Shown: piece by piece, positions 7,710 through 31,629 of the stretch
How the letters are laid out: every line of letters begins with the position of its first letter
Numbering within the stretch: the stretch's first letter is position 1
Assembly: GCA_030156435.1 (NCBI GenBank)
Contig: JASGMM010000028.1
Span: 1-33,399, forward strand
DNA: 33,399 bases
Direction of reading: 5' to 3'
From: Clostridiales bacterium
GTDB lineage: Bacteria > Bacillota > Clostridia > Mahellales > Mahellaceae
Translations under genes and position numbers: made by a program
The notes under the pieces: model-generated
What the model was told of the DNA's origin: nothing
The model's input: the letters and a program-made list of their open reading frames with translations, nothing else
Databases searched by the model: none

Positions 7710-7765
7710 TAACAATTTTTGTATTAAGTTATTTGGTATTTCAAAGCATACAAGGGGGAAACGAT

Positions 7766-16634: not shown

Positions 16635-16691
16635 ATTCATATACGTTTGTATACAAGTGTTATTACATTAATTTTGAAGGAGAAGAGAAAT

Positions 16692-17012
16692 ATGTATAAG
16701 ATTACAATAGACCCGGGTATTTGCAGCTTTCCGATTATAGTAAAGGCTGAATCGGACGATATGCAGCACGTTAAACTGCACATCTCAACAGGTTGCTCAA
16801 GCATACAGCAAGCTGCGAAAGAGCTCGAGGAAGTGGATGCTTACAAAGAGATATTCGTAAAACCGGATCAATCGACGACATATCAGGTTTTATCCAAATA
16901 TGTGCCGCATCCCAGTTGTCCGGTTTATACGGGTATTTTGAAAGCCGTTGAGGTAGCCGCGGGATTGGCCCTGCCAAAAGACGCTACTATAAAAGTCGAA
17001 AAAATGGATTAA
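16692..17012 (+). CDS. Small conserved-looking protein with three cysteines (DUF6951-like)
   Basis: This 106-residue cytoplasmic protein begins MYKITIDPGICSFPIIVKAE after GGAGAAGAG, a clear ribosome site; an earlier in-frame TTG is rejected. Cysteines C11, C35 and C76 lie in short motifs (GICSF, TGCSS, HPSCPVY), a pattern that could bind a metal or an iron-sulfur cluster. It has an alpha/beta character and no membrane segment. I recall similar clostridial proteins annotated only as a domain of unknown function, without a demonstrated role. A perfect 10-bp palindrome, TTGTATACAA (16647-16656), lies upstream. Confidence 0.65.
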   Translation: MYKITIDPGICSFPIIVKAESDDMQHVKLHISTGCSSIQQAAKELEEVDAYKEIFVKPDQSTTYQVLSKYVPHPSCPVYTGILKAVEVAAGLALPKDATIKVEKMD

Positions 17013-17105: not shown

Positions 17106-17148
17106 ATTTGTACGGGAGACTATCGCATAAAATAAAAAATGTACAAAT
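17106..17148 (+). promoter_or_regulatory. Inverted repeat ATTTGTAC/GTACAAAT, candidate operator
   Basis: ATTTGTAC (17106-17113) and GTACAAAT (17141-17148) are perfect inverted 8-mers 27 bp apart, about 100 bases upstream of the sugar-isomerase operon. Each equals half of the Bacillus AraR operator, ATTTGTACGTACAAAT. Here the halves are apart, so a different protein, a looped dimer or chance must be considered. The ROK repressor encoded at the end of this operon is the obvious candidate ligand. The A+T-rich stretch 17149-17244 shows no clear promoter. Confidence 0.45.
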
Positions 17149-17244
17149 AGAAGGATTTTTTATTTTTATGTCGAATATATTAATTAGAATAAAAAATAAA
17201 TTCGATAAAACCGTGTAACTAACAAAGCAAAGGAATGGTGCTGT

Positions 17245-18174
17245 ATGAAGAATATATTCGTGAATCTTAAGCGTTTTGATGTGCCCAAAGCGTATGGAGG
17301 CATATGTCAGATGGATGATCCGAAAGCGTGGATCCGCTGGGTTATAGAGGAATGCGTCGAGAAAGGGCTGGGCAAGATGGAGAATGTCAAAGTGACATTC
17401 TTGCTGCCAGAGTCACTGATCATAACCGCGAGAGAGCGCTTAGCCGATTATCCAGTTGGGGAAACCGGAGGGATTAATGTGGGCTGTCAGGGCGTGTTTA
17501 GAGAAGACGTGGCACTCGGAGGTAATTTTGGGGCTTTTACTACTAACCGTCCGGCTTCAGCCGCTAAGGCCATAGGTTGCACATGGGTTATCATAGGCCA
17601 TTCTGAAGAGAGAAAGGATAAATTAGATGTAATTGAACGATTCGAACCGGCCTGCCGGCAAGATGAAAGGCTGTGGTTAAAAGCTATGAAGGCGGTCAAT
17701 GGCATTATAGCCGATGAGGTGCGTTGTTCGCTAAAGGTTGGACTCAATGTCCTCCTATGTGTCGGAGAGACAGAAGAAGAAAGAGGGCATGGAGAATTTG
17801 AGCAGCAGAAACCGCGTATTCGAGAGGTGCTAAAGACCCAATTGGAGCAGAGCCTTCGGTTCATTTCAGCAAACGAGGCACAAGGGCATATGGTGATAGG
17901 GTATGAACCGGTTTGGGCTATAGGCCCTGGCAAGGTACCACCCGATGCCGAATATATAAGTTTTGTTTCGGCTTATATAAAATCCGTCGTAGAGGTGATG
18001 CTAGGTTTTGAACCTCCGGTTGTATACGGTGGTGGGCTTAAAGAGGAGAATGCGGCTATGATAGCGGGCATAGATACCATCGACGGGGGTTTGGTGGCAT
18101 TGACTAGATTCACCGGCGATATCGCTTTTGAACCCAAAGGGCTCAAGGCAATTATCGATAAATATATACAGTAA
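17245..18174 (+). CDS. Triose-phosphate isomerase-family sugar-phosphate isomerase
   Basis: This 309-residue protein keeps the TIM catalytic set: N7 and K9 (NLK), H119 (GHSEER), E221 (GYEPVWAIG, with loop 6) and the phosphate-binding YGGGLKEEN (261-269). It is about 55 residues longer than glycolytic TpiA, with insertions around 11-45 and 120-165. Members of this divergent clade serve other sugar phosphates; the known examples are L-erythrulose-1-phosphate isomerases of erythritol pathways (EryH, LerI). AAAGGA precedes ATG 17245. It is the first gene of an operon with a LarA-like protein and a sugar isomerase, so a catabolic role in that pathway is inferred rather than a glycolytic one. Confidence 0.8.
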   Translation: MKNIFVNLKRFDVPKAYGGICQMDDPKAWIRWVIEECVEKGLGKMENVKVTFLLPESLIITARERLADYPVGETGGINVGCQGVFREDVALGGNFGAFTTNRPASAAKAIGCTWVIIGHSEERKDKLDVIERFEPACRQDERLWLKAMKAVNGIIADEVRCSLKVGLNVLLCVGETEEERGHGEFEQQKPRIREVLKTQLEQSLRFISANEAQGHMVIGYEPVWAIGPGKVPPDAEYISFVSAYIKSVVEVMLGFEPPVVYGGGLKEENAAMIAGIDTIDGGLVALTRFTGDIAFEPKGLKAIIDKYIQ

Positions 18175-18191
18175 TTAGGAGGTAATATTTA

Positions 18192-19619
18192 ATGAAAACT
18201 GCTAAAATCGAATACGGAGATAGTTTTATGAATATAGAGGTGCCCGATAATGCTGTTATCGTAAGGCCTGAAACACATTACGTTGATCCGCCGGCGGTGG
18301 ACCCTTATGAAGCTACGCGCCGTGCGTTGCAAAAGCCTTTGGGAATTGAGCCGCTGAGGGAACTGGCCAAGCCCGGCAAAAAGGTCGTAATAGCATTTCC
18401 CGACCGGGTAAAAGGCGGTGTTCAGCCAAATGCTCACCGAAAGGTATGCATACCCATTATAGTCGATGAGCTTTTAAAGGGTGGCGTGCGCTTTAAAGAT
18501 ATAACGCTGTTATGTGCTATGGGACTGCATAAGAAAAATACCAAAGAAGAATGGGACCAATATCTGGGCCACGACATAGTCGATATGTTTTGGCCGGATA
18601 GGTTAATAAATCATGACGCTGAGGACCCCGACGGCATGGTGGAGCTGGGATACGACGATATGGGGAATTACGTAAATATGAACAAACAGGTGTTTGAAGC
18701 CGATATAGCCGTTATGATAGGTCATGTACAAGGCAATCCGTATGGAGGTTACAGCGGCGGCTACAAAATGTGCGTGACCGGCATAACCGGTTGGAAGAGC
18801 ATCCGCAGCCACCATAATCCAAGGGTTATGCATCGCGAGGATTTTACTCCTACAAATACCGATCATATGTTCATGCGCAAGCAGTTCGATTCGATAGGAA
18901 AGCATATGGAGAAGATGATGGGCAAACGATTCTTCTGCGTTGATGCGGTTTTAGGCACTAATTCACAAGTGCTGGGCGTATATGCCGGCGTTCCCGATCT
19001 GGTACAGCAGGAGAGCTGGCCGCTGGCTCGGAAAAGAACCGAGGTTTTCCTGGATATAAAGGATAAATTCGATATAATGATATTCGGCGAGCCGAGGTCG
19101 TTCCACTATGGGCCGGGCATGGGGACAAATCCCATACTTATGCTGCAAGCTATAGGCAGCCAGGTGGCTAGGCATAAAGATGTGTTCAACGATAACGGCG
19201 TGGTCATATGCGCCTCGCTGTGCGACGGATGGTTTAACGATGAATGGTTCCCCTCATATAGAAAGCTTTTTAATAAGATTCAGGGAATAAATGATTTTTC
19301 AGAAGCTGTGCGGTTTGAGGACGAGCTATCCCATGATCCGGAGGACATATATAAATACCGATACGCCTATGCTTATCATCCGTTTCACGCTCTGTCAATG
19401 CTATCCATGGGAGGCGTGGCATTAAATAATACAAGCGCCATATTTATTCCAGGGGCCAGGGCCGGCGGTTATGCACGGTCCATGGGCACTATACCGACCA
19501 ATGCCTTTGAAGATGCCTTGAAACAGGCTGAAAAATATGTGGGTAAAAATCCGAGGATATTGGTGCAGGAAAAGGCTTTTACCGCTGTATCGGTACACTT
19601 GAAAATGAATACGAGATAA
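18192..19619 (+). CDS. LarA-family nickel-pincer racemase/epimerase homologue
   Basis: This 475-residue protein has the LarA (DUF2088) fold signatures: FPDRVKGG (69-76), GLHKKNT with H113, GHVQGNPYGGYSGGYK with H188 and K202, and SHH with H217/H218. In Lactobacillus LarA the NPN cofactor bonds K184, nickel is held by H200, and H108 and H174 are the acid-base pair; the spacing here fits H113, H188, K202 and H218. Family members racemise or epimerise 2-hydroxyacids (lactate, malate, gluconate). It is longer than lactate racemase (about 425 residues). AGGAGG precedes the ATG, 17 bases after the TIM-like gene. The cofactor genes larB, larC and larE are not in this window. The sugar-isomerase context suggests an aldonate or a sugar acid as substrate. 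Confidence 0.82.
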   Translation: MKTAKIEYGDSFMNIEVPDNAVIVRPETHYVDPPAVDPYEATRRALQKPLGIEPLRELAKPGKKVVIAFPDRVKGGVQPNAHRKVCIPIIVDELLKGGVRFKDITLLCAMGLHKKNTKEEWDQYLGHDIVDMFWPDRLINHDAEDPDGMVELGYDDMGNYVNMNKQVFEADIAVMIGHVQGNPYGGYSGGYKMCVTGITGWKSIRSHHNPRVMHREDFTPTNTDHMFMRKQFDSIGKHMEKMMGKRFFCVDAVLGTNSQVLGVYAGVPDLVQQESWPLARKRTEVFLDIKDKFDIMIFGEPRSFHYGPGMGTNPILMLQAIGSQVARHKDVFNDNGVVICASLCDGWFNDEWFPSYRKLFNKIQGINDFSEAVRFEDELSHDPEDIYKYRYAYAYHPFHALSMLSMGGVALNNTSAIFIPGARAGGYARSMGTIPTNAFEDALKQAEKYVGKNPRILVQEKAFTAVSVHLKMNTR

Positions 19620-19634
19620 TGGAGGTAGATTACA

Positions 19635-21071
19635 TTGGAGAAGTTAAAAGTAGCTATGGTAAACATGATGCATCGCAATTTTCCCGGCGATCAGCAGGGG
19701 ACGTACAGGCGGTCGGCTGAGGCTATGCAAGCCTTGAGCAGGGAATGGGGTTTTGATTTTTACAGCGTGGATAAAGGCATTGTGACCGAAAGCGATGCAG
19801 AGGTGGTCGTTAGAGAAATAGAGGATAAAGGCGTCGACCTTTTATTGATGCATAATACGGCGTTTCCTAACGGCAAAGCGGTGCAGGCGCTATGCCGCCT
19901 CAACGCTTATATAGGGCTATGGGCGGTGCCAGAGCCGACTAAAGAGGGCCCTTTGCCACTCAATTCCTTCTGCGGCATAAATATGAGCGGCAGCATAATA
20001 ACGGAGTATCTTAAAGAATACGATATCCCTTATAAATGGTTTTATGGGAATGCAAACGATGATTTCTTCAGGGAACGGTTTAAGGTTACCGTAAAAGCGT
20101 TGACCGCTGTAAAAAATCTTAAGCGTTCACGCATAGCTTTAATAGGTGGCATAGCCGATGGCTTTGATGACCTGTATTTTGACGAGAGAAAACTCCAAAA
20201 GAAACTAGGTATCCGATTATACCGGAACCACGAGTTTTCTGAGATAAAGGATAAAGCCCTTTCCTACGATATAAACGACGTAAAAGATATAATGTCGCAA
20301 ATCCAAGCCGACGCCTCTTCCGTTCATCCTATGGCTACGTCATCTTTGGAAAAGAATGCAAGGCTCTATAAGGCGTTGGCGGACTTCAAAGACCAATACG
20401 GTTATGATGGATTGGCGATAAGCTGTTGGCCAAAATTCCGAACCGAGATGGGCATGGTGGCATGCGCTGCCATAGGCCGCTTGAACGATCAAGGTATAGT
20501 GGCGGCATGCGAGGGCGATGTATACGGCCTTATAGGTATGATGTTATTGCGTTTACTATCGGATAGCCCCTCTCTGGTGCTGGATCTTTCGGATATAGAC
20601 GAGTCTGATGAGACAATATTGCTGTGGCATTGCGGAATTGGCGGCAAGAGGATGGCAAAGGACGGGCGCATATGGTTGTCGCCGCACAGCAATCCGAGCA
20701 ACTTTCCCGATAGAGGCAAGGTCATGATGTCGCCTGTGGCCGAGATGGAGTTTAAGCCAGGCGATGCCACTGTCGTCCGCATAGTGGACGACGGGCAGAG
20801 GATGGCCGTATTGAGCGGCAGGTTCATAGAGAATGATAAAAAGAGCTTTGACGGCAGCCGCGGCTGGTTGGGTGATCTTAAGTGGAACGGAGAGCCTATA
20901 TCGGTAAAGGATCTCGTCAATACTATCATGGTTCAAGGCATGCCGCATCACTATCCTTTGACCATGGGGTGTTTTGCCGATGAGATGCTGGAAATAGCAG
21001 GATGGTTAGATATGAAACCGATAGACAAAATCCCTTATAAAAACTATTTTCAGAGGGGTTATAGAAACTAG
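19635..21071 (+). CDS. L-fucose/L-arabinose isomerase-like sugar isomerase
   Basis: This 478-residue protein belongs to the FucI/AraA-like fold (COG2407 type). Its N-terminal half is a Rossmann-like domain (KVAMVNMMHRNFPGD onward). The C-terminal half holds the expected metal ligands: E293 (ACEGD), D317 (LVLDLSDID; 24 residues later, the same spacing as E337-D361 in E. coli FucI) and a histidine from MPHHYP (H438/H439). LWHCG (H332) lines the site. Such enzymes interconvert aldoses and ketoses with manganese. The start is TTG 19635, ten bases after GGAGG; no ATG is near. It lies 15 bases after the LarA-like gene. It differs from true FucI (about 590 residues) in length, so the substrate is open. 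Confidence 0.8.
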   Translation: MEKLKVAMVNMMHRNFPGDQQGTYRRSAEAMQALSREWGFDFYSVDKGIVTESDAEVVVREIEDKGVDLLLMHNTAFPNGKAVQALCRLNAYIGLWAVPEPTKEGPLPLNSFCGINMSGSIITEYLKEYDIPYKWFYGNANDDFFRERFKVTVKALTAVKNLKRSRIALIGGIADGFDDLYFDERKLQKKLGIRLYRNHEFSEIKDKALSYDINDVKDIMSQIQADASSVHPMATSSLEKNARLYKALADFKDQYGYDGLAISCWPKFRTEMGMVACAAIGRLNDQGIVAACEGDVYGLIGMMLLRLLSDSPSLVLDLSDIDESDETILLWHCGIGGKRMAKDGRIWLSPHSNPSNFPDRGKVMMSPVAEMEFKPGDATVVRIVDDGQRMAVLSGRFIENDKKSFDGSRGWLGDLKWNGEPISVKDLVNTIMVQGMPHHYPLTMGCFADEMLEIAGWLDMKPIDKIPYKNYFQRGYRN

Positions 21072-21122
21072 TTGCTGAGGTTTAGAATATTTAAGCAAAA
21101 GGATGTATGAGGGAGGCAAACG

Positions 21123-22295
21123 ATGGTCCTAAATGGGCAGAATATGACCGAGGTTAAGCTCAAAAACAGGTCGGTGGTGCTGCGTTTGCTATTTAAATAC
21201 GGGCCCATATCGAGAGCACAATTGAGTCAGGTTACAGGTTTAACGCCTCCTACCATAACGTCGCTGGTAGGAGAGATGATAAACGAGGGCATAGTAATCG
21301 AGACAGGCAATACCGACGACCCGGCAAAAGGTGGTGTCGGACGGAAACGCGTGTTGATAGATTTAAAGAACGATGCGAAGTACGAGATAGGTATAGAATT
21401 TGGCGTTGAAACTACGCATATGGGTATAAATGATTTAAAAGGCAACCTCGTGTGCGATCGAATTCTGCCCATCATTACGCCTGACCCGACAGAGCGCATA
21501 CGACAAACAGCCCGAGAGGTTGTTGATATGCTTTCTGAACGAGAAATTCCGATGGAAAGAGTGTTAGGTATCGGTGTAGGCGTGCCGGGATTGGTGGATA
21601 GAGAGAGGGGCATTAACCGTAAATCGCCGAATTTGGGATGGAAAAACGTAAATGTCAGAAATATATTCAGCGAGGTATTATCGATGCCGGTTTTGCTCGA
21701 AAACAATGTGAGATGCATGGCGCTGGGCGAGCAATTCTTCGGCTTTGGGCGCGAAATGGACGATATTATACTATTTCATGTGGGGATGGGTATAGGCTGT
21801 GGCATCATCATAGACGGACGATTGTTTCATGGCAGCAGCGAGGGAGCAGGAGAGATAGGCCATACTACGATAGATATAAACGGTCCTCAGTGCGGTTGCG
21901 GCAAAAAGGGCTGCCTGGAAGCACTGGCTTCAGGCAGGGCCATAGCCGATAAAGGCCGTGAATTTCTGGGACGTGATGTGAGTGCATATGATGTGTTTCT
22001 TGCAGCTAAAGCAGGTGACCCGATTGCAGCAGGGATATTAAAGGAGGCCGGCTATTATCTGGGTATAGGTGTAGCCAACCTGATAAACCTATTTAATCCT
22101 CAGATGGTGGTATTGCACGGAGGCGTTTTAAACAGCGGCGATATAGTACTGAAACCGCTGTTGGAAACGGCGTCATCCCATGTTTTTTCAGACAGATCAG
22201 AAGATGCAGATATAAAGTTAAGCGCTTACGGCGACGAACTTGGGATAATGGGCGCCTCTGCTTTGGTGCTGAAAGAATTGTTCTTTAAGTTGTGA
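21123..22295 (+). CDS. ROK-family transcriptional repressor (NagC/XylR type)
   Basis: This 390-residue protein has an N-terminal winged helix-turn-helix (about 15-80; ISRAQLSQVTGLTPPTITSL is the recognition unit) and a C-terminal ROK sugar-kinase-like domain. The zinc site is intact: H247 (GEIGHTT) with C257, C259 and C264 (CGCGKKGC). The kinase catalytic Asp of the ENDxN motif is replaced by Asn (ENNVR, N195), so it should sense sugar without phosphorylating it. GGGAGG lies six bases before ATG 21123. As last gene of the TIM/LarA/isomerase operon it probably represses it until a pathway sugar binds; the inverted repeat at 17106-17148 is a candidate site. Confidence 0.88.
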   Translation: MVLNGQNMTEVKLKNRSVVLRLLFKYGPISRAQLSQVTGLTPPTITSLVGEMINEGIVIETGNTDDPAKGGVGRKRVLIDLKNDAKYEIGIEFGVETTHMGINDLKGNLVCDRILPIITPDPTERIRQTAREVVDMLSEREIPMERVLGIGVGVPGLVDRERGINRKSPNLGWKNVNVRNIFSEVLSMPVLLENNVRCMALGEQFFGFGREMDDIILFHVGMGIGCGIIIDGRLFHGSSEGAGEIGHTTIDINGPQCGCGKKGCLEALASGRAIADKGREFLGRDVSAYDVFLAAKAGDPIAAGILKEAGYYLGIGVANLINLFNPQMVVLHGGVLNSGDIVLKPLLETASSHVFSDRSEDADIKLSAYGDELGIMGASALVLKELFFKL

Positions 22296-22763
22296 ACAAT
22301 AGTGAACGAAACTTAAACGATGTTAGATGGATTAATCGAATGATTTATGAAACTACGGTACAAACACATAGGGACAGCGGGGTTTTATGCGAGGTCATAA
22401 ATATACCTGAATCGGACGCACATTATACGGGATAGCTATTCTATTTCTTTGAAATGTCATGTTATGTTTCAGTGATGATATTAGGCATTGGATCCGATTG
22501 ACCAACCGGGGGTTGAAGTATATAAAAATTGTATATTTAAAGCTGTTGGCAGATAAATGTGATTATATAGCTAGATATATCATAAATTTAATGTTTCAGT
22601 TGTCATATATATGTTTTCAATATAAATCTTTTAGAAAAAGTATGATAAAAGATCAAACTTTTAATTATAAATGAACGCTATATAATATACTTATAAGGTA
22701 ACTTGGCAGAATTTTCAGAATAAATTTGGTTATATGTGTTTGTTAAAGAGGAGGATGATTCTC
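22296..22763 (+). other. A+T-rich intergenic region before the ABC operon
   Basis: These 468 bases hold no convincing gene. A 71-codon frame at 22459-22674 lacks a ribosome site and has low-complexity composition. A possible promoter is TTGTCA (22600-22605), 17 bp, TAAATC (22623-22628); a second TATAAT at 22681-22686 lacks a good -35. A small CAACC/GGTTG hairpin lies at 22503-22515. I looked for TPP, SAM and FMN riboswitch cores and recognised none. The composition is more A+T-rich than the flanking genes. Confidence 0.5.
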
Positions 22764-23537
22764 ATGGAGGGAAAATCAAAAAAAATTAGCAGCAGCGTGA
22801 TATTGCTGGCATCATTGGCTATTGGATTTGTTATATGGACGATTATATCGCTTGTCCCGTCTATCGGTTCAATAATAGTCGGGCCGGCCAAAGTATTTGA
22901 AGCGTTGATAAGCGAATATGAAAATGGCAATCTGGCTAAGAACATCAGCATTAGTTTGTGGAGGGTTTTCAGCGGGTTTTCCATTGGCCTTATAACGGCC
23001 ATACCGGTAGCCTTTCTGATGGGTTGGTATACGCTTGTAAGGCAGTTTGTAGAGCCATGGATACAATTTTTCCGTACAATCCCGCCTATAGCTTTGATAC
23101 CACTGGTAATAGTAGCACTTGGTGTCGGTGAGAGCGCAAAGACCACGGTTATATTTGTAGCTTCATTTCTGGTTATGGTAGTGACCATTTATCAAGGCGT
23201 AAAAGGAGTTGATCCGGTGTTAATAAATGCGGCAAGAGTTCTTGGGGCAAGCGATAGAGACATCTTTTTTGATGTTGTGGTTCCGGCGTCGGTGCCTTAT
23301 ATACTCGTTGGCGTAAGGCTTGGCTTAGGAAGCGCCCTTACCACATTGGTAGCAGCAGAGCTTACCGGAGCATCGAGTGGTTTGGGCAATATGATCATGG
23401 AGGCTAGCCTGTACTTTAGGATGGATGTTGTAATGCTTGGAATAATATTGATCGGCGTTATAGGATTCATATTGGACAAAGCAGTCTTATATCTGGAAAA
23501 AAGGATAACTAGTTGGCAGGAAATGAGGGAGCAATAA
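22764..23537 (+). CDS. ABC transporter permease, sulfonate/taurine/nitrate type (SsuC/TauC-like)
   Basis: This 257-residue membrane protein has about six helices, beginning ISSSVILLASLAIGFVIWTI, and the coupling EAA-type loop NAARVLGASDRDIFFDVVVP that contacts the ATPase. It belongs to the family importing sulfonates, taurine, nitrate, or pyrimidine precursors such as HMP. ATG 22764 is chosen because AGGAGG is nine bases upstream; earlier ATGs overlap or precede the site. The ATPase gene starts one base after its stop. Homodimer assembly is expected, since no second permease is present. The ligand is unknown. Confidence 0.88.
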   Translation: MEGKSKKISSSVILLASLAIGFVIWTIISLVPSIGSIIVGPAKVFEALISEYENGNLAKNISISLWRVFSGFSIGLITAIPVAFLMGWYTLVRQFVEPWIQFFRTIPPIALIPLVIVALGVGESAKTTVIFVASFLVMVVTIYQGVKGVDPVLINAARVLGASDRDIFFDVVVPASVPYILVGVRLGLGSALTTLVAAELTGASSGLGNMIMEASLYFRMDVVMLGIILIGVIGFILDKAVLYLEKRITSWQEMREQ

Positions 23538-23538
23538 G

Positions 23539-24330
23539 ATGAGTGCGAATGAACAGCAGATAAAGATAAGGGTAAGGGGCCTAAACAAATCATTTAACGG
23601 CAGGAATGGCGAATTAGTAGCGTTAAAAGATGTTGATCTTGACGTATATACCAACGAATTCATATGTATAGTAGGTCCAAGCGGATGCGGAAAGACAACA
23701 CTTTTAAATATTTTAGCTGGCCTTGAGAAACCCACATCTGGAGTGGCTGAGATGGATGGTTCTGAGATAAAGGGACCCAGTGCGGAAAGGGGGGTAGTCT
23801 TCCAACAATATGCACTGTTTCCTTGGAAAACGGTGATTCAGAACGTTGAATTTGGCCTTAAACTCAAAGGTATGGATAAGGAAAGGCGAAGGCAGGAGGC
23901 GATGAAATATGTTGAAATGGTAGGATTAAAGGATTTTGCCGATGCTTATCCCAAGGAGCTTTCGGGTGGCATGAAGCAAAGAGTGGCTATAGCGAGAGCA
24001 TATGCGGTGAATCCCGAAGTGCTTTTAATGGATGAACCTTTCGGTGCATTGGATGCTCAAACAAGGGCACAGCTCCAGGAGGATTTATTAAAAACATGGG
24101 ATAAAGAAAAAAAGACATGTTTCTTTATCACACACGATGTGGATGAAGCGGTGCTTCTCGCGCAAAGGGTGGTTATAATGGGGGCAAGGCCGGGGCGCAT
24201 AAGGGAGATAATAAATATAGATGTGCCCTATCCGAGAAATCAAGAGACTAAATTGCAGGAAGATTATATAGCTTATAGGAATCTTATATGGAGCAAAGTA
24301 TATAAAGAATACTTGGAAGTAGCAAAATAA
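23539..24330 (+). CDS. ABC transporter ATPase, SsuB/TauB-like
   Basis: This 263-residue ATPase powers the adjacent permease. All motifs are intact: Walker A GPSGCGKTT (46-54), Q-loop FQQYALFPW (88-96), signature LSGGMKQR (141-148), Walker B VLLMDEPFGALD (161-172) and the switch histidine in FITHDVDEA. The FPW after the Q-loop and DEPFGALDAQTR are typical of the nitrate/sulfonate group. The stop of the permease and this ATG are separated by one base, so translation is coupled. The binding-protein gene follows 31 bases later. Confidence 0.93.
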   Translation: MSANEQQIKIRVRGLNKSFNGRNGELVALKDVDLDVYTNEFICIVGPSGCGKTTLLNILAGLEKPTSGVAEMDGSEIKGPSAERGVVFQQYALFPWKTVIQNVEFGLKLKGMDKERRRQEAMKYVEMVGLKDFADAYPKELSGGMKQRVAIARAYAVNPEVLLMDEPFGALDAQTRAQLQEDLLKTWDKEKKTCFFITHDVDEAVLLAQRVVIMGARPGRIREIINIDVPYPRNQETKLQEDYIAYRNLIWSKVYKEYLEVAK

Positions 24331-24361
24331 CGGAGTATAATTATTGAGGAGAGATTTACGC

Positions 24362-25435
24362 ATGAAAAATTTGATGTCGTTAAATAAAAGGTTATTGGTA
24401 TTGGTTATTTCTATTGCTTTTATTGCTATGGCATTGCTGAGCGCTTGTAGTTCTGGTAACAATACAGGCACTACGGATGCGGATACCACAGGAAATGAGG
24501 CTGCAAGTCAACCACAAAAAGAGCTAAAGCCTATAAACATCGGGTATATGCCAGACATGCACGGGGCTACGCCTCTTGTCATAGCAGATGAAAAAGGCTA
24601 TTTTGAAGAAGAAGGATTGAAACCGAATTTTATAAAATTTCTGAATGGGCCTCAGGAGCTTCAGGCTATGGCAGCCGGTGATTTGGATGTGGGGTATATA
24701 GGACCCGGTGCAACTTTTCTAGCGGCACAAGGCCAGGCAAAAATATTAATGCCGGATAGCCTAAATACTGGCGATATGGTATTAACCAATGTTAATTCTG
24801 GAATAAAAACCGGTGCTGACTTAAAAGCCAAAACGGTTGGTGTACCAAAGGGCACCTCGGGAGAAATGGTGTTAAATCTTTTGCTGAAAAAATATAACCT
24901 GACTCCATCAGATGTTAACATAATGAACATAGATGTTGCAGGTGCGGTAGCTGCTTTTACCGCGAATAAGGTCGATGCGGTCGCTATATGGTCTCCTTAT
25001 ACAGCTGAAATAGAAAAACAGCTCGGAAAGGATAATATCGTGGTATTAGCGACTAACAATGATTTTATGCCCGAGTACGTTTTCCCACAAAGTTGGGTGG
25101 CTAATCCTACAGTATTGAAAAAGGATGAGGATTTGATCCTTAGATTTATAAGGGCATGGAATAAGGCAAATGATTATAGGATAGATAATTTGGATGAAGC
25201 TGTTAAACTTACAGTTGATTTTACGCAGGTTCCAGAGGATTCTTTAACAGTGCAGCTCGATACAACCCAATGGCTAAAGTCGAGTGAGATAAAATCTAAA
25301 TATGAAGATGAAACTATATACTCATGGTATGAAAACCTGGAGAAATTGTTTGTTGAAACAGAGAAGATGAAAGAAGTAGTACCTGCAAAAGATTTCGTGG
25401 CAGGTGACATTTATTTAAAATCTTTTGACAAATAG
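24362..25435 (+). CDS. ABC transporter substrate-binding lipoprotein, SsuA/NMT1-like
   Basis: This 357-residue protein has a signal sequence (1-28) with lipobox LLSAC, lipid-bearing C29, and a Ser/Thr/Asn-rich linker. The mature part starts INIGYMPDMHGATPLVIADE and follows the SsuA/TauA/NMT1 periplasmic fold: ADEKGYFEEEGL, QAMAAGDLDVGYIGPG, then GVPKGTSGEMVLN. The family binds sulfonates, taurine, nitrate or thiamine precursors; the pocket cannot be read by eye. ATG 24362 follows GAGGAGAG; the upstream TTG is rejected. It completes the importer, and a sulfatase gene lies 2.5 kb downstream, which hints at an organosulfur ligand without proving it. Confidence 0.88.
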   Translation: MKNLMSLNKRLLVLVISIAFIAMALLSACSSGNNTGTTDADTTGNEAASQPQKELKPINIGYMPDMHGATPLVIADEKGYFEEEGLKPNFIKFLNGPQELQAMAAGDLDVGYIGPGATFLAAQGQAKILMPDSLNTGDMVLTNVNSGIKTGADLKAKTVGVPKGTSGEMVLNLLLKKYNLTPSDVNIMNIDVAGAVAAFTANKVDAVAIWSPYTAEIEKQLGKDNIVVLATNNDFMPEYVFPQSWVANPTVLKKDEDLILRFIRAWNKANDYRIDNLDEAVKLTVDFTQVPEDSLTVQLDTTQWLKSSEIKSKYEDETIYSWYENLEKLFVETEKMKEVVPAKDFVAGDIYLKSFDK

Positions 25436-25440
25436 TAAAT

Positions 25441-25459
25441 AGGGGGCTTTATGCCCCTT
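25441..25459 (+). other. Short hairpin between the ABC operon and the sensor kinase
   Basis: AGGGGGC and GCCCCTT pair (one G-T) around TTTAT directly after the binding-protein gene. No U-run follows. It may protect the importer mRNA or lower expression of the downstream kinase genes. Confidence 0.4.
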
Positions 25460-25493
25460 ATCAATAAACAAGAAAGCAGGATGGGCAATACCG

Positions 25494-26993
25494 ATGGTAA
25501 TCCTCTTTATGTTGTTTATAACATCAGCAATTGCTCTTTTAATACTGAGACCCAAAAGCAGGTCGGTTCATTGGATGGAGCTTACAATTATCGGCTGGCT
25601 TTTGGGAACGGGGGGGTATTTGCTTTTTTTAGCCAAATACGGTGGGTTTTATAGTAATGTCAATGCTATATTGTTTCTGACCGATGATATACGCCAAATA
25701 CTGCTGTATTTGCCGGTAAATATCGATACTATAAGCAGGATAATAGTATATGGTAGGTCTCTTTTTATATTTAGCTTGTGCAGTTTAGCATACTATATAA
25801 GCGGTAAACCGTCATCCAAAAGTATTTTGTGGTTGTATATTATAAACAGCGTTTTATCATTGGTGAATGCCATTGTCTATGATCCAAACATATATAGGCA
25901 TATTTTATCTACCTTTGACAGGACGGCGCTCGAGTGGATAGCGATAACTACGCGAGGATGGCTGCTCATCGCTTTTATAAGCGTGGTTTATATTATCATC
26001 GCTATTTACTTGAAATCTACGGTACCGTGGATAAAAAGAAGGCTGATGAACATAATGATAGGCATAATTTCGATGATAATATTTTATTTTTACTTAGGAT
26101 TTATGGGCCCGCTACAGGTCACCGACCCGAGAACGTATTATTTCCTTTATTCGGATTTTTCCAACTTTAATCCGCCGATCAGCGATGCTGAATGGTATAT
26201 AGGTATTGTATTTACCGGGATAAGCTGTATCGCGGCTATATATTCATTTTCTCAATATATAACTGTAGAAAGGGATTTGGATAAAGATACGCTGTATCTA
26301 GATCTTAAATTCAATACCGGTAAGATGGGGGCCAAGGTTTTTACGCATGGTATTAAAAATCAATTGATAATGTTGCAGATGTTAGCTAAGAAAATCTTGG
26401 AGCAAAAAGAAGAAATGCCTGCTGGAGAAGTGCGCGATAATATTTGTAACAGTGCTTCTTCTATTGCGGATATAACGAACGGTATGCTGGAAAGAATAAA
26501 CGAACTTTCTAATACGTTTAATACGTTTCGGCTGGAATTGAAGCCGGTAGATATTAATGATATTATTAAAGAATCATTAAAAAAAGTAAAATTACTGCCC
26601 GATAATGTAAGTATAAATAATAAAAACCCGTCTGACCATATTATTGTGTTGGCAGATAAGAGATATCTTGCAGAGGCGGTTTATAACATTATCGACAATG
26701 CTATCGAAGCGATTGTTATGGCCGATGTCAAAGAGGGTATAATTAATATAAAAGTAAAAAGCGAACATAAGTACTGCATTATAGAAGTGACTGATAATGG
26801 TGTCGGTATGGCTGATGATCAAATAAAACGCATTTATGACCCGTTTTATACCAACAAGAATACCGTTACAAACTGGGGCGTTGGGTTATCATATTCTCAA
26901 AGCGTTATACGCGCGCATTTCGGCCATATACAGGTCAAGAGCAAATTGTGGGAAGGTAGTACATTTTACATATTTCTACCGATTTATGCATAG
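25494..26993 (+). CDS. Membrane sensor histidine kinase with seven-helix input domain
   Basis: This 499-residue protein has about seven hydrophobic spans in residues 1-255, with little extracellular loop, so it may sense a membrane or transporter-linked signal. The phospho-acceptor is probably H285 (FTHGIKNQ), where H is followed by K-N instead of the usual E-x-[NT]. The HATPase domain (about 375-499) has an N-box with NIIDNAIEAI, DNGVGM, DPFYT and GVGLS. The start is uncertain: ATG 25494 has only a weak ribosome site and no better in-frame start was seen. The response-regulator gene follows 58 bases later. Position after an importer suggests that it controls that importer. Confidence 0.85.
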   Translation: MVILFMLFITSAIALLILRPKSRSVHWMELTIIGWLLGTGGYLLFLAKYGGFYSNVNAILFLTDDIRQILLYLPVNIDTISRIIVYGRSLFIFSLCSLAYYISGKPSSKSILWLYIINSVLSLVNAIVYDPNIYRHILSTFDRTALEWIAITTRGWLLIAFISVVYIIIAIYLKSTVPWIKRRLMNIMIGIISMIIFYFYLGFMGPLQVTDPRTYYFLYSDFSNFNPPISDAEWYIGIVFTGISCIAAIYSFSQYITVERDLDKDTLYLDLKFNTGKMGAKVFTHGIKNQLIMLQMLAKKILEQKEEMPAGEVRDNICNSASSIADITNGMLERINELSNTFNTFRLELKPVDINDIIKESLKKVKLLPDNVSINNKNPSDHIIVLADKRYLAEAVYNIIDNAIEAIVMADVKEGIINIKVKSEHKYCIIEVTDNGVGMADDQIKRIYDPFYTNKNTVTNWGVGLSYSQSVIRAHFGHIQVKSKLWEGSTFYIFLPIYA

Positions 26994-27051
26994 AGCATAA
27001 TAACATTTGTTAAACAATCTTAAGCTATTATAAGCGAAGGATGTGAGTAAA

Positions 27052-27750
27052 ATGCCACCAATAAAGGTTCTTGTTGCTGAGGATTTAGAAATATTGAGGA
27101 GTTATTTTTGCGAAGCTATAAATAATGAGCCCGATCTACAGGTTGTCGCTGAGGCATCGACTGGTAAAGAGGCTGTAAATAAAGCAAAAAATTATGGGCC
27201 TGATGTGATATTGATGGATATTGAAATGGCTTCGAGAAGCGATGGTATAGAAGCGGCCAAAAATATATTGGCTGAAATGCCGTTAATAAAAGTGGTGTTT
27301 CTTACCGTACACGACGATGATGAGACCGTGTTTAGGGCTTTCGAAAGTGGCAGCGTAGACTACGTGCTTAAGGATTCCGATACCGATGAGATAGTTCAGA
27401 GTATCCGGCTTGCTTATGATGGCAATTCTCCAATAAGGCCCAAGGTGGCAGTTAAAATAAGAAATGAATTCATGAGAATAAAGAAAAATGAATCCAAGCT
27501 TATGAGTACGGTAAACATATTGTCTCAACTTACGCCTGCGGAGTGGGAAATAATACGACTCTTGGTAAAAGGCAAACGCGTCAAAGAGGTTGCCTCGTTA
27601 AGGCATGTGGAGCTCACCACTATAAAAACGCAAATAAATATAATATTGAAGAAATTTGATAAGAAAAGAACAAAAGATGTATTAAAGTTTATAGAAAATA
27701 TGGGTTTGACATTACTTTTTACAGATAATAACGATAAAGATATGTTATAA
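27052..27750 (+). CDS. Response regulator, NarL/FixJ-like with LuxR-type HTH
   Basis: This 232-residue protein has a receiver domain (1-125) with acidic E10/D11, phospho-acceptor D56 (ILMDIEM), the switch Thr in FLTVHDDD and the conserved Lys in YVLKDSD. The C-terminal part (160-232) is a helix-turn-helix starting LTPAEWEIIRLLVKGKRVKE with TTIKTQINIILKKFD as recognition region, related to LuxR/NarL domains but weak in consensus. ATG 27052 is chosen with AAGG ten bases upstream; a GTG nine bases earlier is too close to that site. It should be phosphorylated by the adjacent kinase. Confidence 0.87.
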   Translation: MPPIKVLVAEDLEILRSYFCEAINNEPDLQVVAEASTGKEAVNKAKNYGPDVILMDIEMASRSDGIEAAKNILAEMPLIKVVFLTVHDDDETVFRAFESGSVDYVLKDSDTDEIVQSIRLAYDGNSPIRPKVAVKIRNEFMRIKKNESKLMSTVNILSQLTPAEWEIIRLLVKGKRVKEVASLRHVELTTIKTQINIILKKFDKKRTKDVLKFIENMGLTLLFTDNNDKDML

Positions 27751-27758
27751 TACCGACT

Positions 27759-27775
27759 GCCAATATAATATTGGC
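27759..27775 (+). other. 17-bp palindrome after the response regulator
   Basis: GCCAATATAATATTGGC is a perfect palindrome (8 bp each side of one base) just eight bases after the stop. It is not followed by a T-run. It may be a weak terminator or a regulator site. Confidence 0.4.
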
Positions 27776-27811
27776 TTCAGAATCCTATGTGATTACTCAG
27801 CTACAATTACG

Positions 27812-27860
27812 CATGGGCGAGAGTAACGATTAGCCAAGCTAACCAATTACCAAGCCCGTG
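27812..27860 (+). other. 49-base segmented hairpin upstream of the sulfatase
   Basis: Three nested helices are visible: CATGGGC with GCCCGTG (7 bp, one T-G), GTAA with TTAC (4 bp), and TTAGC with GCTAA (5 bp) closing a CAA loop. Between them are short asymmetric internal loops, GAGA/CAA and CGA/CCAA. It lies upstream of the probable sulfatase promoter, so it is either an operator or, in read-through RNA, a structured element. No known riboswitch was recognised. Confidence 0.5.
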
Positions 27861-27889
27861 AGACACATAAATAGATGGAAAATGCACAT

Positions 27890-27918
27890 TTGCTATATAG
27901 CGGATTTCATAGTATACT
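27890..27918 (+). promoter_or_regulatory. Probable sigma-A promoter of the sulfatase-phosphofructokinase pair
   Basis: TTGCTA (27890-27895), 17-bp spacer and TATACT (27913-27918) precede the start by about 50 bases. The 10-bp palindrome GCTATATAGC overlaps the -35 edge and spacer (27892-27901). Confidence 0.6.
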
Positions 27919-27970
27919 GATATAAAAAAGCGCGCAAAGGTATTTTTACGTAATTTTAGGAGGATATATT

Positions 27971-29431
27971 ATGCGTATTCTTTATTTGGATCTCGATACG
28001 CTTCGCCCCGATCATCTCGGTTGCTATGGTTATCACAGGAATACCTCGCCTAATATAGACCGAATAGCGGAGCGAGCTGTGAGATTCGATAATTATTATT
28101 GTTCGGATGCCCCGTGCTTACCGTCGCGTACGGCTCTTATGAGCGGCAGATTCGGTATTCATACCGGTGTAGTAAATCATGGCGGTACTGCGGCCGATAT
28201 GAGGCTGGAAGGTGAGAAACGCGATTTTCGAGATAAGTTGTGGAATAGCAGCTTACCGGGTTTTTTGCGCTCGGCTGGGCTTAAAACAGTTTCCATAAGT
28301 CCTTTTGCTGAAAGGCATTCTTCTTGGACATTTTATTCCGGTTTCAACGAGATGTATAATACCGGCAAAGGCGGTGCAGAATTAGCTGGAGATATAACAC
28401 CAACGGCCTTAAAATGGATTGAAGCCAATGCTAAAGAGGACAATTGGTTTTTGCACATAAATTATTGGGATCCTCATACCCCGTATCGTACCCCGGATGA
28501 ATTTGGGAATCCATTTGAAAATGATCCTATACCGGATTGGCTGACCCAAGAGGTGCTGGATGAGCATATAAAAATGGCAGGGCCGCATACCGCATTGGAT
28601 CTGAATATGTACAACGGCGATCCTAATCCAGAATTTCCTCAGTTCCCAGGGGAAATACGAACTATGGATGACCTGAAGAAGGTGATAGATGGCTATGATC
28701 GCGGAATACGGTATATGGATCAGCACATAGGAATGGTATTGGATGCATTAAATAAACAGGGTGTACTGGATGATCTTGTTATTATAATAAGCGCCGATCA
28801 TGGCGAGAATATGGGCGAGCTTGGCATATACAGCGAGCATGCCACGGCTGATAAATGTACTTGCAGAATACCGATGATAATCAAATGGCCTGATTATGCG
28901 TCGGGATATGTTGACAAAGGCCTTCACTATAATCTGGATTTGGGGCCTACATTGGCAGAGATGTTGAATAAAGAACCCGTATCATGGTGGGATGGCCAAA
29001 GCTATGCTTCAGTTATAAAAGGAGGTAAGGATTGTGGCAGGCCTTATCTGATTATCAGCCAGTGCGCTCATGTATGTCAACGCAGTGTTAGATTTGGTCC
29101 TTGGTTGTATATACGCACCTATCATGATGGGTATCATCTGTTTCCAGAAGAGATGCTGTTTGACATAGAACACGACCCGCATGAGCGTTATAATATAGCC
29201 GTACAAAATCCGCGAATTTGTATGGAAGGTGTATACTACCTGAATCAGTGGCACGATAATATGATGAGAACCATGGAGCATGATGTGGATCCTTTATGGA
29301 CGGTGATGAAAGAAGGCGGGCCTTATCATGCTAAAGGGCATCTTAAAAGATACTGCCAAAGGCTGGAGCAAACCGGCAGGGGATATGCTATACCCGAGCT
29401 CAAGAAAAGGCATCCTCAGGAATTCGAATAA
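27971..29431 (+). CDS. Type I (formylglycine) sulfatase, Cys-type
   Basis: This 486-residue alkaline-phosphatase-superfamily enzyme hydrolyses a sulfate ester. The active-site motif is CLPSR (C49-R53), in which C49 must be oxidised to formylglycine by a maturase (anaerobic radical-SAM type expected in this group; not in the window). Metal ligands lie in LYLDLDTLRPDH (D7/D9) and SADHGENMGE. There is no signal peptide, so the enzyme is cytoplasmic and acts on an imported substrate. AGGAGG precedes ATG 27971. The phosphofructokinase gene follows 24 bases after its stop. A carbohydrate or small-molecule sulfate is possible; the substrate is not deducible. Confidence 0.88.
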   Translation: MRILYLDLDTLRPDHLGCYGYHRNTSPNIDRIAERAVRFDNYYCSDAPCLPSRTALMSGRFGIHTGVVNHGGTAADMRLEGEKRDFRDKLWNSSLPGFLRSAGLKTVSISPFAERHSSWTFYSGFNEMYNTGKGGAELAGDITPTALKWIEANAKEDNWFLHINYWDPHTPYRTPDEFGNPFENDPIPDWLTQEVLDEHIKMAGPHTALDLNMYNGDPNPEFPQFPGEIRTMDDLKKVIDGYDRGIRYMDQHIGMVLDALNKQGVLDDLVIIISADHGENMGELGIYSEHATADKCTCRIPMIIKWPDYASGYVDKGLHYNLDLGPTLAEMLNKEPVSWWDGQSYASVIKGGKDCGRPYLIISQCAHVCQRSVRFGPWLYIRTYHDGYHLFPEEMLFDIEHDPHERYNIAVQNPRICMEGVYYLNQWHDNMMRTMEHDVDPLWTVMKEGGPYHAKGHLKRYCQRLEQTGRGYAIPELKKRHPQEFE

Positions 29432-29455
29432 TTAAGTTGTAAAGGGGCGATGAAT

Positions 29456-30628
29456 ATGTCTGCTAATCTTATAGTGGTTCACGGCGGTGGACCTACAGCT
29501 GTTATAAACGCTTCGCTCAAAGGTATTATAGATGAAGCAAAAAAATATAATGAGATAGATGGTATATATGGATCCGTCGGTGGGGTAGATGGTATATTCG
29601 CTGAAAGATTTGCCGACCTGCGCGCTATTTCTGGACAAGCGTTATCCAGACTTTCTTATACACCGGGTTCGTTTATAGGATCATCGCGCAAACATCTTGA
29701 GCCGGAGGACTATGAGACCATCGTGGCCATACTGCGCCGCAATAACATAAAATATTTATTGTTCACAGGCGGAAACGGGTCTATGGATACTTGCAATAAA
29801 ATACATCATGTGGCGGCTCAAGCCGGTGATATCAACGTTATAGGTATACCGAAGACCGTAGATAACGATCTGGCCAATACTGATCATGCGCCCGGATACG
29901 GCAGCGCCGCCCGTTACGCCGCCGTATCCGCATGCGAGCTTGGTATCGACGTGGCCTCGCTGCCTGTACATATATCAGTTATCGAATTTATGGGACGCAA
30001 TGCGGGGTGGATAACGGCGGCGTCCGCGCTGGCCAGATGTAAGCAAGGCGATGCGCCTCACCTCATATATCTGCCCGAGAGACCATTTGTAGAAGAAGAG
30101 TTTTTACATGAGATAGAACGGCTCCATAAAGAAATAGGAGGGGCTGTAGTGGCTGTATCCGAAGGCTTGGTTGGGCCCGACGGAAATCCATTGGTGCAGC
30201 CCAACAATATGTCCAGACGCGATGCGTTTTCCAATGATGTCAGCGTATATCTTGCGCGCCTTATATCGGATAAACTGCATATAAGAGCCCGTAGCGAAAA
30301 ACCGGGTCTTTTGGGGCGTGCTTCCATAGCACATCAGTCATCGGTAGACCGACGAGAGGCTGAAATGGTAGGAGCTGCAGCTGTTAAAGCGGCGGTGGAA
30401 GGCTTATCCGGTTATATGGCGGCACTCAAACGCCTTTCGACAGAGCCGTATAGCTGTACTACCGAATTGGTATCTATAGATCTCATGAGCATGACCGAAC
30501 GACATGTGCCAGATGAATTTATAGATCCTTCAGGGCATGACGTGACGCCGGCCTTCATCGAGTATTGTAAACCGCTAATAGGCGATGCCATGCCCGTATA
30601 TGCAACGAACCGCGATTTGCTCTATTGA
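29456..30628 (+). CDS. 6-phosphofructokinase family, phosphoryl donor uncertain (ATP or PPi)
   Basis: This 390-residue protein has the PFK fold: N-terminal LIVVHGGGPTAVINAS, GGNGS (105-109), PKTVDND (132-138) with catalytic D136, and MGRNAGW (179-185). Donor choice follows the residue after GG[DN]: G108 points to ATP, while D would mean PPi. However K133 in place of the Gly of PGTIDND is typical of PPi enzymes, so the signals conflict. N107 replaces the usual Asp. The start is taken at the second ATG because AAAGGGG is eight bases upstream; ATG 29450 is too close to that site. It pairs with the sulfatase gene and ends convergently, overlapping the next gene by seven bases. Confidence 0.85.
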   Translation: MSANLIVVHGGGPTAVINASLKGIIDEAKKYNEIDGIYGSVGGVDGIFAERFADLRAISGQALSRLSYTPGSFIGSSRKHLEPEDYETIVAILRRNNIKYLLFTGGNGSMDTCNKIHHVAAQAGDINVIGIPKTVDNDLANTDHAPGYGSAARYAAVSACELGIDVASLPVHISVIEFMGRNAGWITAASALARCKQGDAPHLIYLPERPFVEEEFLHEIERLHKEIGGAVVAVSEGLVGPDGNPLVQPNNMSRRDAFSNDVSVYLARLISDKLHIRARSEKPGLLGRASIAHQSSVDRREAEMVGAAAVKAAVEGLSGYMAALKRLSTEPYSCTTELVSIDLMSMTERHVPDEFIDPSGHDVTPAFIEYCKPLIGDAMPVYATNRDLLY

Positions 30629-31629
30629 TTTTGAAAGGCCTCTATGAGAGCCACTATGTTTTCGGCCGGCACATCGCTGGGTATGGCGTGGGTGGGGGCT
30701 GCTATATAACCGCCGTTGTATGACATGGTCTCCATCATGTACCGAGCTACGCGTTTAATCTCGTCGGGAGAAACGAATGGCAAAACCTGTTGTGTGCTTA
30801 TTCCACCCCAAAACGTCAATCTATCGCCGTATAATCTCTTTATCTCGTTTACATCGTATATTTCTGGCTGGAACGTATTGTATATATCCAGCCCTATTTC
30901 TATAAGGTCGGGAAAAAGCTCATGTATGTCGCCGCAAGAGTGAAGGGCCACATACTTGCCGGCATCATGGGCCTTTTTAAACATGCGCGCCATGCGTGGC
31001 TTGATAAAGCGTTTCCATAATTTCGGTCCCATGATGAGTCCGTGTTGCTGCCCCCAATCATCGCCGAAATAAAAGCAGTCTATATCATAATCCAGTATGA
31101 TATCCATCAAATGCATGTTGAAATCGGCTATGGCATCCAATAGCTTATCCACAAAGTCGGGATTGAGCAGCATATCGGTCAGAAGATTCTCCATACCGCG
31201 CATGGTCCATGCGCGCTCGAACATGGAGAAGCCTATGCCGGCTACCTTGAATGCATCTCGGCCATTATTTACCAGGCCATCACACATTTCCCGCAAACGC
31301 ACTTCATCTATAGTTGGAAAGGTATAGCCGTCCAAGGTCGGCTCTGCCAGTACAAAATGTTCTACCACACCTATGTCTTTGTCGGCCACGTTCCTGTTCT
31401 ATACCACGCAGAAATCGTCTTTGAAATACCCGCTGCCGGGTTCTGTTTCTGTAGGCCAGCCTGAATAATCGACCATGTCGATATGATTGCCTATTTTATT
31501 TACGAAATCGGGATCATTGAGATATCTGGCAGTTTTTTTATAAGCCTGCTGCGTCATACCTATATAATATGGTACAATGTCAGTCTTTTGATGGTTTATA
31601 GCCGCTATAACGTGCTCTTTTCTTGTCAT
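30622..31629 (-). pseudogene. URO-D/MtaA-family methyltransferase-like gene interrupted by one in-frame TAG
   Basis: Starting at ATG 31629 (GGAGAGG upstream), the frame encodes a uroporphyrinogen-decarboxylase-like protein: MTRKEHVIAAINHQKTD, then GYFKDDFCVV. It hits TAG at 31401-31399 and continues in the same frame as NRNVADKDIGVVEHFVL to the natural stop. Relatives read VVWNR here, so TGG became TAG. Total length would be 335 residues, normal for the family. The C-terminal part has HSCG, a His-x-Cys zinc site typical of corrinoid-dependent methyltransferases (MtaA type) rather than haem enzymes. The adjacent Cys in DFCVV also departs from the usual Gly. It lies 50 bases after pdxT. It may be inactive, or a GTG at 31389 may give a C-terminal fragment of 255 residues. 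Confidence 0.82.

Follow-up and report, generated by a model that had tools for sequence, protein, structure and literature searches.

A stretch of 33,399 nucleotides from a Clostridiales bacterium of the family Mahellaceae (contig JASGMM010000028.1, positions 1 to 33,399; hereafter the window) carries a conserved gene cluster in which a homologue of the nickel-pincer enzyme LarA (LarAH) is combined with a paralogue of triose-phosphate isomerase (TIM), a sugar isomerase of the AraA/FucI fold, a kinase of the phosphofructokinase (PFK) family and an SsuABC-type transporter. We consider it reasonably probable, if far from certain, that this cluster encodes a sulfoglycolysis-like pathway, that is, a dedicated upper glycolysis for a hexose with an anionic group at C6, which would most likely be a sulfonate or an O-sulfate. 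The presence of one of these two groups at C6 is moderately supported. The novelty would lie in a variant of sulfoglycolysis that is arranged around an orphan subfamily of LarA.

The preliminary description of this DNA had recognised four genes, for a TIM paralogue, a LarA-type epimerase, a FucI-like isomerase and a ROK repressor, and had placed them in one operon of a probable new sugar pathway. The gene set and the spacing of 17, 15 and 51 bases on the plus strand were confirmed from the coordinates of the open reading frames (ORFs), as were the family labels for TIM, LarA-type enzyme and ROK by Pfam and for the FucI/AraA-like third gene by its predicted fold. However, this operon is only the first part of a unit of approximately 13.4 kb (17245-30628), about 2.7 times the length first described. 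Within the unit, the 438 bases that separate the ROK gene from SsuC and the 220 bases that separate the response regulator gene from that of the sulfatase suggest separate transcripts. That the cluster nevertheless forms one unit is well supported. Specifically, a locus in the genome of another family (L045) contains PFK (58% identity), aldolase, TIM (57%), LarAH (51%), TauE, SsuCBA, response regulator (59%) and kinase genes in one cluster, and the set of PFK, TIM, LarAH, SsuCBA, response regulator and histidine kinase recurs in L045 and in loci of Lachnospiraceae and Desulfosporosinus with differing gene orders. The view of a conserved sugar-catabolic unit with an enzyme of the nickel-pincer nucleotide (NPN) type is upheld. 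The claim that no kinase is included has to be dropped, since the unit ends with a PFK belonging to the clade of LarAH-cluster PFKs.

Comparisons of sequence place the LarAH of the window with good support in the single-His subfamily of LarA. This subfamily, with LarA_Bw from Blautia wexlerae and LarA_Sp from Streptococcus plurextorum, has an asparagine in the place of the second catalytic histidine; structures were solved and the function was left open (Gatreddi et al. 2025, PMC12611868). LarAH matched both proteins over its full length (493 bits to 9q2u, LarA_Sp, and 463 bits to 9q3j, LarA_Bw), and in the alignment Asn182 is found at the position of the catalytic His174 of LarA and Lys74 at that of Arg75. 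Among the residues D71, K74, H113, N182, K192, H208, H305, Y306 and H399, those at 113, 192, 208, 305, 306 and 399 agree with the published single-His active site, and the His-Tyr and HPFH motifs are shared with the subfamily. When aligned with LarA_Sp and relatives, LarAH shows the features of the wider superfamily that are also found in LarA, GntE and Mar (PMC7583248, PMC11770544), namely the Lar_N domain, the NPN lysine (K192), the nickel-binding histidine (H208) and the first catalytic histidine (H113), but it differs from them in lacking the second one, which is needed for two-base racemisation. The earlier statement that all three enzymes retain their catalytic residues holds for the Lys, His and Glu of TIM and fails for LarAH. 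The LarAH_14_15_16 model gave 216 bits with LarAH against a cut-off of 740.

The study of the single-His subfamily detected no lactate activity for LarA_Sp, suggested a role in carbohydrate metabolism, modelled an unknown ligand as a linear phosphorylated aldose, and had already reported phosphoglucose isomerase (PGI), PFK, TIM and aldolase among the neighbours (PMC12611868). The association of TIM and LarAH is therefore not new, but it was previously unexplained, and the same neighbours in the present context point to a sulfoglycolysis-like pathway with non-phosphate substrates. The preliminary description knew of no comparable pathway; apart from these reported neighbours, sulfo-EMP2 already unites a FucI-family isomerase, a PFK, a class II aldolase and a reductase of the 3-hydroxyisobutyrate dehydrogenase (HIBDH) family (PMC11968277, PMC12890257). 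Literature searches joining LarA, TIM and sulfonates, DUF2088 and TIM, or 2,3-dihydroxypropane-1-sulfonate (DHPS) and lactate racemase returned nothing relevant.

Profile searches of the source genome, for which larB, larC and larE had been proposed as a check, found all three above curated cut-offs. Housekeeping copies of TIM (345 bits versus about 108-109 for the window copy) and of PFK (371 versus 173 bits) are encoded on other contigs, so the window TIM and PFK are second copies. Seven class II aldolases are encoded elsewhere in the genome, none of them clearly orthologous to the long aldolase of the cluster type that was sought there. A search for an anaerobic sulfatase-maturating enzyme in the same genome gave only matches below cut-off, one of them a short fragment. 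A second LarA homologue (G000:C41:87-695, Lar_N 221 bits, also recovered as L001 and L143) ends at a contig edge, and the genome thus has at least two LarA-type enzymes.

In keeping with the preliminary description, the enzymes are not an ordinary TpiA, LarA and FucI. That the TIM is a non-ordinary one and that phosphate sites are changed is well supported by sequence. The window TIM shares the fold family of triose-phosphate isomerase and its catalytic Lys, His and Glu (NLKRF, GHSEER, YEPVWAIGPGK), but the phosphate loops 7 and 8 read YGGG and VALTR instead of the typical YGGS and VGGAS, and its score is far under the equivalog cut-offs (TIGR00419, 70 bits versus 131). Among the TIMs of related clusters YGGS is changed to YGGG in all 46 and VGGAS to an ALT-type loop 8 in nearly all, which mostly gains Arg, Lys or Gln. 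Similar changes were detected in the other enzymes. The SKSGTT motif of solved PGI relatives reads AK[ND]F[ENA]T in all nine cluster PGIs, while most other conserved motifs are kept; the Arg of the NagA motif REPG is a His in most of 17 sequences; and in most of 15 NagB sequences the TGGTP loop is two residues shorter, with FRxWH[RK]xVVR close to the position of the former phosphate lysine, where basic residues are kept and gained. PFKs of LarAH clusters are without equivalents of R162 and H249, as are those of clusters with a sulfoquinovose isomerase (SftI). We take the altered positions to be 6-phosphate (or triose phosphate) ligands of canonical TIM, PGI, NagA, NagB and PFK. A different group at C6 is the best explanation for a coordinated change in five enzyme families.

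To place the cluster in context, species genomes were scanned with eight LarAH sequences, which yielded at least 545 relatives; 80 loci were kept and, with seven from a phylum survey, form a set of 87. ORF calling in these loci was automatic, with grouping of the products by BLAST, so that where contigs were short or GC-rich some genes were missed; the names NagA, NagB, PGI, TauE, ChrA and aldolase were checked with hidden Markov models (HMMs) on representatives. The kept loci span Clostridia, Spirochaetes, Deltaproteobacteria, Rhodobacterales, Chloroflexi, gut Lachnospiraceae and others. Near LarAH we found TIM in 45 of the 87 loci, PFK in 25, class II aldolase in 23 and an HIBDH-type dehydrogenase in 22; transport genes were SsuB/MalK (37), SsuA (26), SsuC (21), TauE (20) and ChrA (7), and sugar-converting genes NagA (17), NagB (14) and PGI (9). 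A hexokinase was not conserved in LarAH clusters. TauE is about 40 times commoner near LarAH than in the background of roughly 0.4 genes per Mb (61 genomes), from which about 0.5 would be expected in 1.38 Mb versus the 20 loci seen. TIM and the HIBDH-type dehydrogenase never occur together (0 of 87 loci; Fisher 2e-9, which is indicative as related loci are not independent), and in L040 an HIBDH gene occupies the place held by TIM in the relatives of this locus, as if the two were alternative ways of handling the same C3 aldehyde. Conservation of the trio of TIM, LarAH and isomerase was thus borne out in part: TIM accompanies LarAH across many phyla, but only a minority of arrangements has precisely this trio with its FucI-like isomerase, and PGI, mannose-phosphate isomerase or NagA/NagB take that step elsewhere. 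Further variants read from sequence include a transaldolase/FSA-like aldolase (L085), a PfkB kinase (L113), two SIS proteins (L120), and larE, larB and larC downstream of LarAH (L075, where larE and larB were read from sequence).

The dehydrogenases give an additional indication of substrate type. Nearly all HIBDH-type cluster dehydrogenases have LGRP where β-hydroxyacid dehydrogenases have SGG, and thereby an added Arg. An arginine in this loop is likewise employed by YihU, the reductase of 3-sulfolactaldehyde (SLA). In L098 the LarAH operon consists of a GntR-type regulator, a TRAP transporter, HIBDH, LarAH and TauE, followed by unrelated genes, and in L081 and L126 TRAP and LacI genes are divergent from LarAH, HIBDH and larC. 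These operons are without PFK or aldolase, and the shared substrate is therefore probably a three-carbon compound, e.g. DHPS or SLA. A GarR-type glycerate pathway was considered for them and rejected because LGRP differs from SGG; HMM scores alone cannot separate this case, as GarR is the best-scoring model for the HIBDH of an SftI cluster, too. A protein of approximately 650 amino acids resembling type I phosphodiesterases/nucleotide pyrophosphatases is encoded near LarAH in L060, L061, L066, L070, L097 and L121, often in loci of the HIBDH type.

The cluster furthermore shows kinship with clusters around SftI. Among 399 genomes of the phylum we identified SftI-like isomerases with 440-536 bits, none above the 700-bit cut-off; their loci carry PFK, aldolase and ABC genes, and two also a GH31-like protein that, as read from sequence, resembles sulfoquinovosidase. 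Four Moorella-like LarAH clusters contain an SftI relative (305-330 bits) beside a transporter and a HemE-like gene, together with a Gfo/Idh-family protein; most of them also encode an M24 protein that shares about 50% identity with those of SftI clusters. Between two SftI clusters and the Moorella LarAH clusters, identities of transporter genes lie mostly at 56-69%. The PFK tree places the window PFK in a clade of 20 LarAH-cluster members (support 100/99), which is sister to four SftI-cluster PFKs (90/100); the window PFK is thus sister to that clade and not inside it, and the identity of those PFKs with SqiK is assumed from context. Moorella PFKs group, weakly, with another SftI-cluster PFK. 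When compared to sulfo-EMP2 (SqvD/SftI, SqiK, SqiA, YihU; PMC12890257), the window shares a FucI-family isomerase and ABC import, and its PFK is sister to the PFKs of SftI clusters; the class II aldolase, HIBDH-type dehydrogenase (SLA reductase in sulfo-EMP2) and TauE are found in related LarAH clusters. ABC importers and TauE exporters have been described for sulfosugar degraders (PMC8873060, PMC12421959). Unlike sulfo-EMP2, the LarAH clusters add the TIM paralogue and LarAH, the isomerase is not SftI, and NagA/NagB/PGI variants occur elsewhere. An M24-peptidase-like gene (creatinase fold) is conserved beside SftI-type isomerases (L175-L177, L180-L183, L192).

The isomerase of the window is a divergent protein. 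It gave no match to solved structures by sequence even at E = 1, its Fucose_iso_C score (20 bits) is under the Pfam cut-off, and its best NCBIfam model is SftI (NF048012), with 166 bits versus a cut-off of 700. In Foldseek comparisons its AlphaFold model (mean pLDDT 85) comes closer to L-arabinose isomerase (TM 0.76-0.78) than to L-fucose isomerase (0.73), and the candidate metal ligands CExD, WHCG and His439 are invariant in 13 relatives. In the tree it stands in a clade apart from SftI-like sequences, together with the copy of L191, which likewise adjoins a ROK regulator and a sulfatase; this hints that the version in the window might handle a sulfated sugar. Two congeneric genomes contain no close orthologue. 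A cluster resembling that of the window was seen in L100 (3185-9032), where sulfatase-like, FucI-like isomerase, class I aldolase-like and FGGY kinase genes lie beside LarAH. In a genome of the same genus, L049 (9984-19800) encodes a FucI-like isomerase (27%), an altronate-dehydratase-like protein, an aldehyde dehydrogenase and a LarA homologue of canonical length next to a sugar ABC transporter, and looks like the aldonate-epimerase pathway imagined in the preliminary description.

For the window cluster we propose that the SsuABC-type transporter would import the C6-anionic sugar, which the isomerase would convert to the ketose and the PFK paralogue would phosphorylate at O1. With an anion in place of the 6-phosphate, such a pathway can do without a hexokinase. 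A class II aldolase encoded outside the window would then yield dihydroxyacetone phosphate and OHC-CHOH-CH2-X, where X is the anionic group, e.g. SLA, and the TIM paralogue would interconvert the latter and its 2-keto isomer. Since glycolytic paralogues account for every step as far as OHC-CHOH-CH2-X, LarAH is the one enzyme that remains for processing the fragment with X. Its nickel-pincer cofactor may take a hydride from a carbinol of the C3-X compound, and LarAH, because its second acid/base His is Asn, may then invert or isomerise this compound one way, or expel X and so release sulfite for export. The ROK protein and the two-component system would regulate the cluster.

Several observations weigh against such a pathway. 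None of the members has a known substrate, and the isomerase is distant from SftI. GH31 sulfoquinovosidase genes were not seen in TIM-type LarAH clusters, so that sulfoquinovose itself is not established, and the window contains no aldolase, TauE or ChrA. The versions with NagA, NagB or SIS proteins need an amino sugar; no natural 6-sulfonated amino sugar was found in the literature searched, and an O-sulfate may fit these versions better. SsuABC-type transporters and TauE have other substrates as well, some former phosphate positions of PGI hold Asp or Glu, which is odd for an anion, and the assignment of phosphate ligands rests on general knowledge of the canonical enzymes. A rival reading is an ordinary phosphate-based pathway, in which duplicated glycolytic enzymes act on common or rare hexose phosphates and a phosphorylated sugar would be isomerised by LarAH, as speculated for the subfamily (PMC12611868). 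The glycolytic neighbours, the ligand modelled as a phosphorylated aldose and the cluster NagA, which exceeds the NagA cut-off (308 versus 226 bits), are consistent with it, yet we regard it as rather unlikely given that phosphate motifs are changed in five families, that housekeeping TIM and PFK are already present and a conserved hexokinase is not, and that the association with SsuABC and TauE/ChrA would be left unexplained. The loss of phosphate ligands and the polar or acidic residues of the PGI loop might instead reflect a neutral C6 (hydroxyl or hydrogen), with unphosphorylated or 6-deoxy sugars and a TIM acting on glyceraldehyde or lactaldehyde, and in L100 and L190 FucI-like isomerases indeed have FGGY-type kinases as neighbours. 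The basic residues kept and gained in NagB (FRxWH[RK]xVVR), the Arg, Lys or Gln mostly gained in TIM loop 8, the Arg gained by the dehydrogenases, the sulfur-type transporters and the kinship to SftI-cluster genes make this unlikely.

The substrate class favoured in the preliminary description, a rare sugar or aldonate with ordinary nickel-dependent epimerisation at C2, appears very unlikely to us. Gluconate and arabinarate epimerases do belong to the LarA family (PMC7583248, PMC11770544) and larBCE are present, but the catalytic His174 is replaced by Asn, no lactate activity was detected for LarA_Sp in published work, and a sugar dehydrogenase, dehydratase or aldonate kinase was not seen conserved in the clusters. 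It is also highly improbable that the four-gene operon serves a function of its own and that the transporter, regulators, sulfatase and PFK are unrelated neighbours; the 438- and 220-base gaps would allow this, but the set of PFK, TIM, LarAH, SsuCBA and two-component genes recurs with other gene orders in L045 and in loci of Lachnospiraceae and Desulfosporosinus, and the window PFK lies within the LarAH-cluster clade. An L-sugar pathway with racemisation of L-glyceraldehyde phosphate was considered and found no support.

Within the sulfoglycolysis-like reading, single-His LarA enzymes might even be redox-neutral desulfonating or desulfating enzymes that take a hydride off the carbinol of a C3 sulfo-compound, lose sulfite and return the hydride, although we think this improbable. 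Such a reaction would not call for another proton transfer to oxygen, which would account for Asn in the place of the second acid/base. The main pointer in this direction, and a hint only, is the L098 operon with its two enzymes between TRAP transporter and TauE. If true, desulfonation by LarAH would add a further anaerobic C-S cleavage to sulfo-lyases and glycyl-radical enzymes. Candidate substrates for LarAH can now be listed (SLA, DHPS, 3-hydroxy-2-oxopropanesulfonate and sulfate-ester analogues), and protein of the single-His subfamily already exists in holo form for substrate trials. Nickel-pincer chemistry would reach beyond hydroxyacid racemisation and, as the clusters are widespread, the pathway could be relevant to organosulfur turnover in the gut and the environment.

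Table 1. Features of the LarAH cluster and its borders, in positions of the window.
Feature	Position	Strand	Evidence or remark
Candidate operator, 12-bp inverted repeat AAAATAAAAAAT-14-ATTTTTTATTTT	17129..17166		5' of first gene
TIM paralogue, 309 aa	17245..18174	+	Pfam TIM PF00121
Single-His LarA homologue (LarAH), NPN-type, 475 aa	18192..19619	+	Lar_N PF09861, 142 bits
AraA/FucI-fold sugar isomerase, 478 aa, TTG start	19635..21071	+	Predicted structure, fold search
ROK-family transcriptional regulator, N-terminal helix-turn-helix	21123..22295	+	Pfam, 226 bits
SsuC-type ABC permease	22734..23537	+	Profile matches; conserved with LarAH clusters
SsuB-type ABC ATPase	23539..24330	+	62% identity to copy of LarAH cluster L045
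SsuA-type substrate-binding protein	24344..25435	+	TIGR01728, 184 bits, over cut-off
Membrane sensor histidine kinase	25494..26993	+	Relatives in 9 of 87 LarAH loci
Response regulator	27043..27750	+	59% identity to L045 copy; 11 of 87 LarAH loci
Sulfatase-family enzyme, CLPSR motif, no obvious signal peptide	27971..29431	+	Few other LarAH loci only
PFK-family kinase, LarAH-cluster clade	29450..30628	+	Pyrophosphate-dependent PFK subfamily model NF010675, 411 bits
URO-D/HemE-like protein, cluster membership uncertain	30622..31389	-	Also near SftI and Moorella-type LarAH clusters

Since the inverted repeat lies in an AT-rich stretch it is weak evidence for an operator, and binding by the ROK protein is putative; a search of three intergenic regions gave no convincing operator common to them. 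The sulfatase was rejected as a core part of the pathway, as its relatives occur in few LarAH loci. URO-D/HemE-like (MtaA-type) genes as in the window recur beside SftI and Moorella-type LarAH clusters (L181, L182, L183, L192). Just 5' of the operon a DUF6951 protein is encoded (16647-17012, plus strand) that was not seen as a conserved neighbour. Further upstream, near a gene for an AraM-like dehydrogenase (4580-5986, minus strand), an FGGY-family sugar kinase (7733-9332, plus strand) is frameshifted into the overlapping ORFs 7733-9163 and 8850-9332, probably reflecting either a broken kinase gene or a sequencing error.

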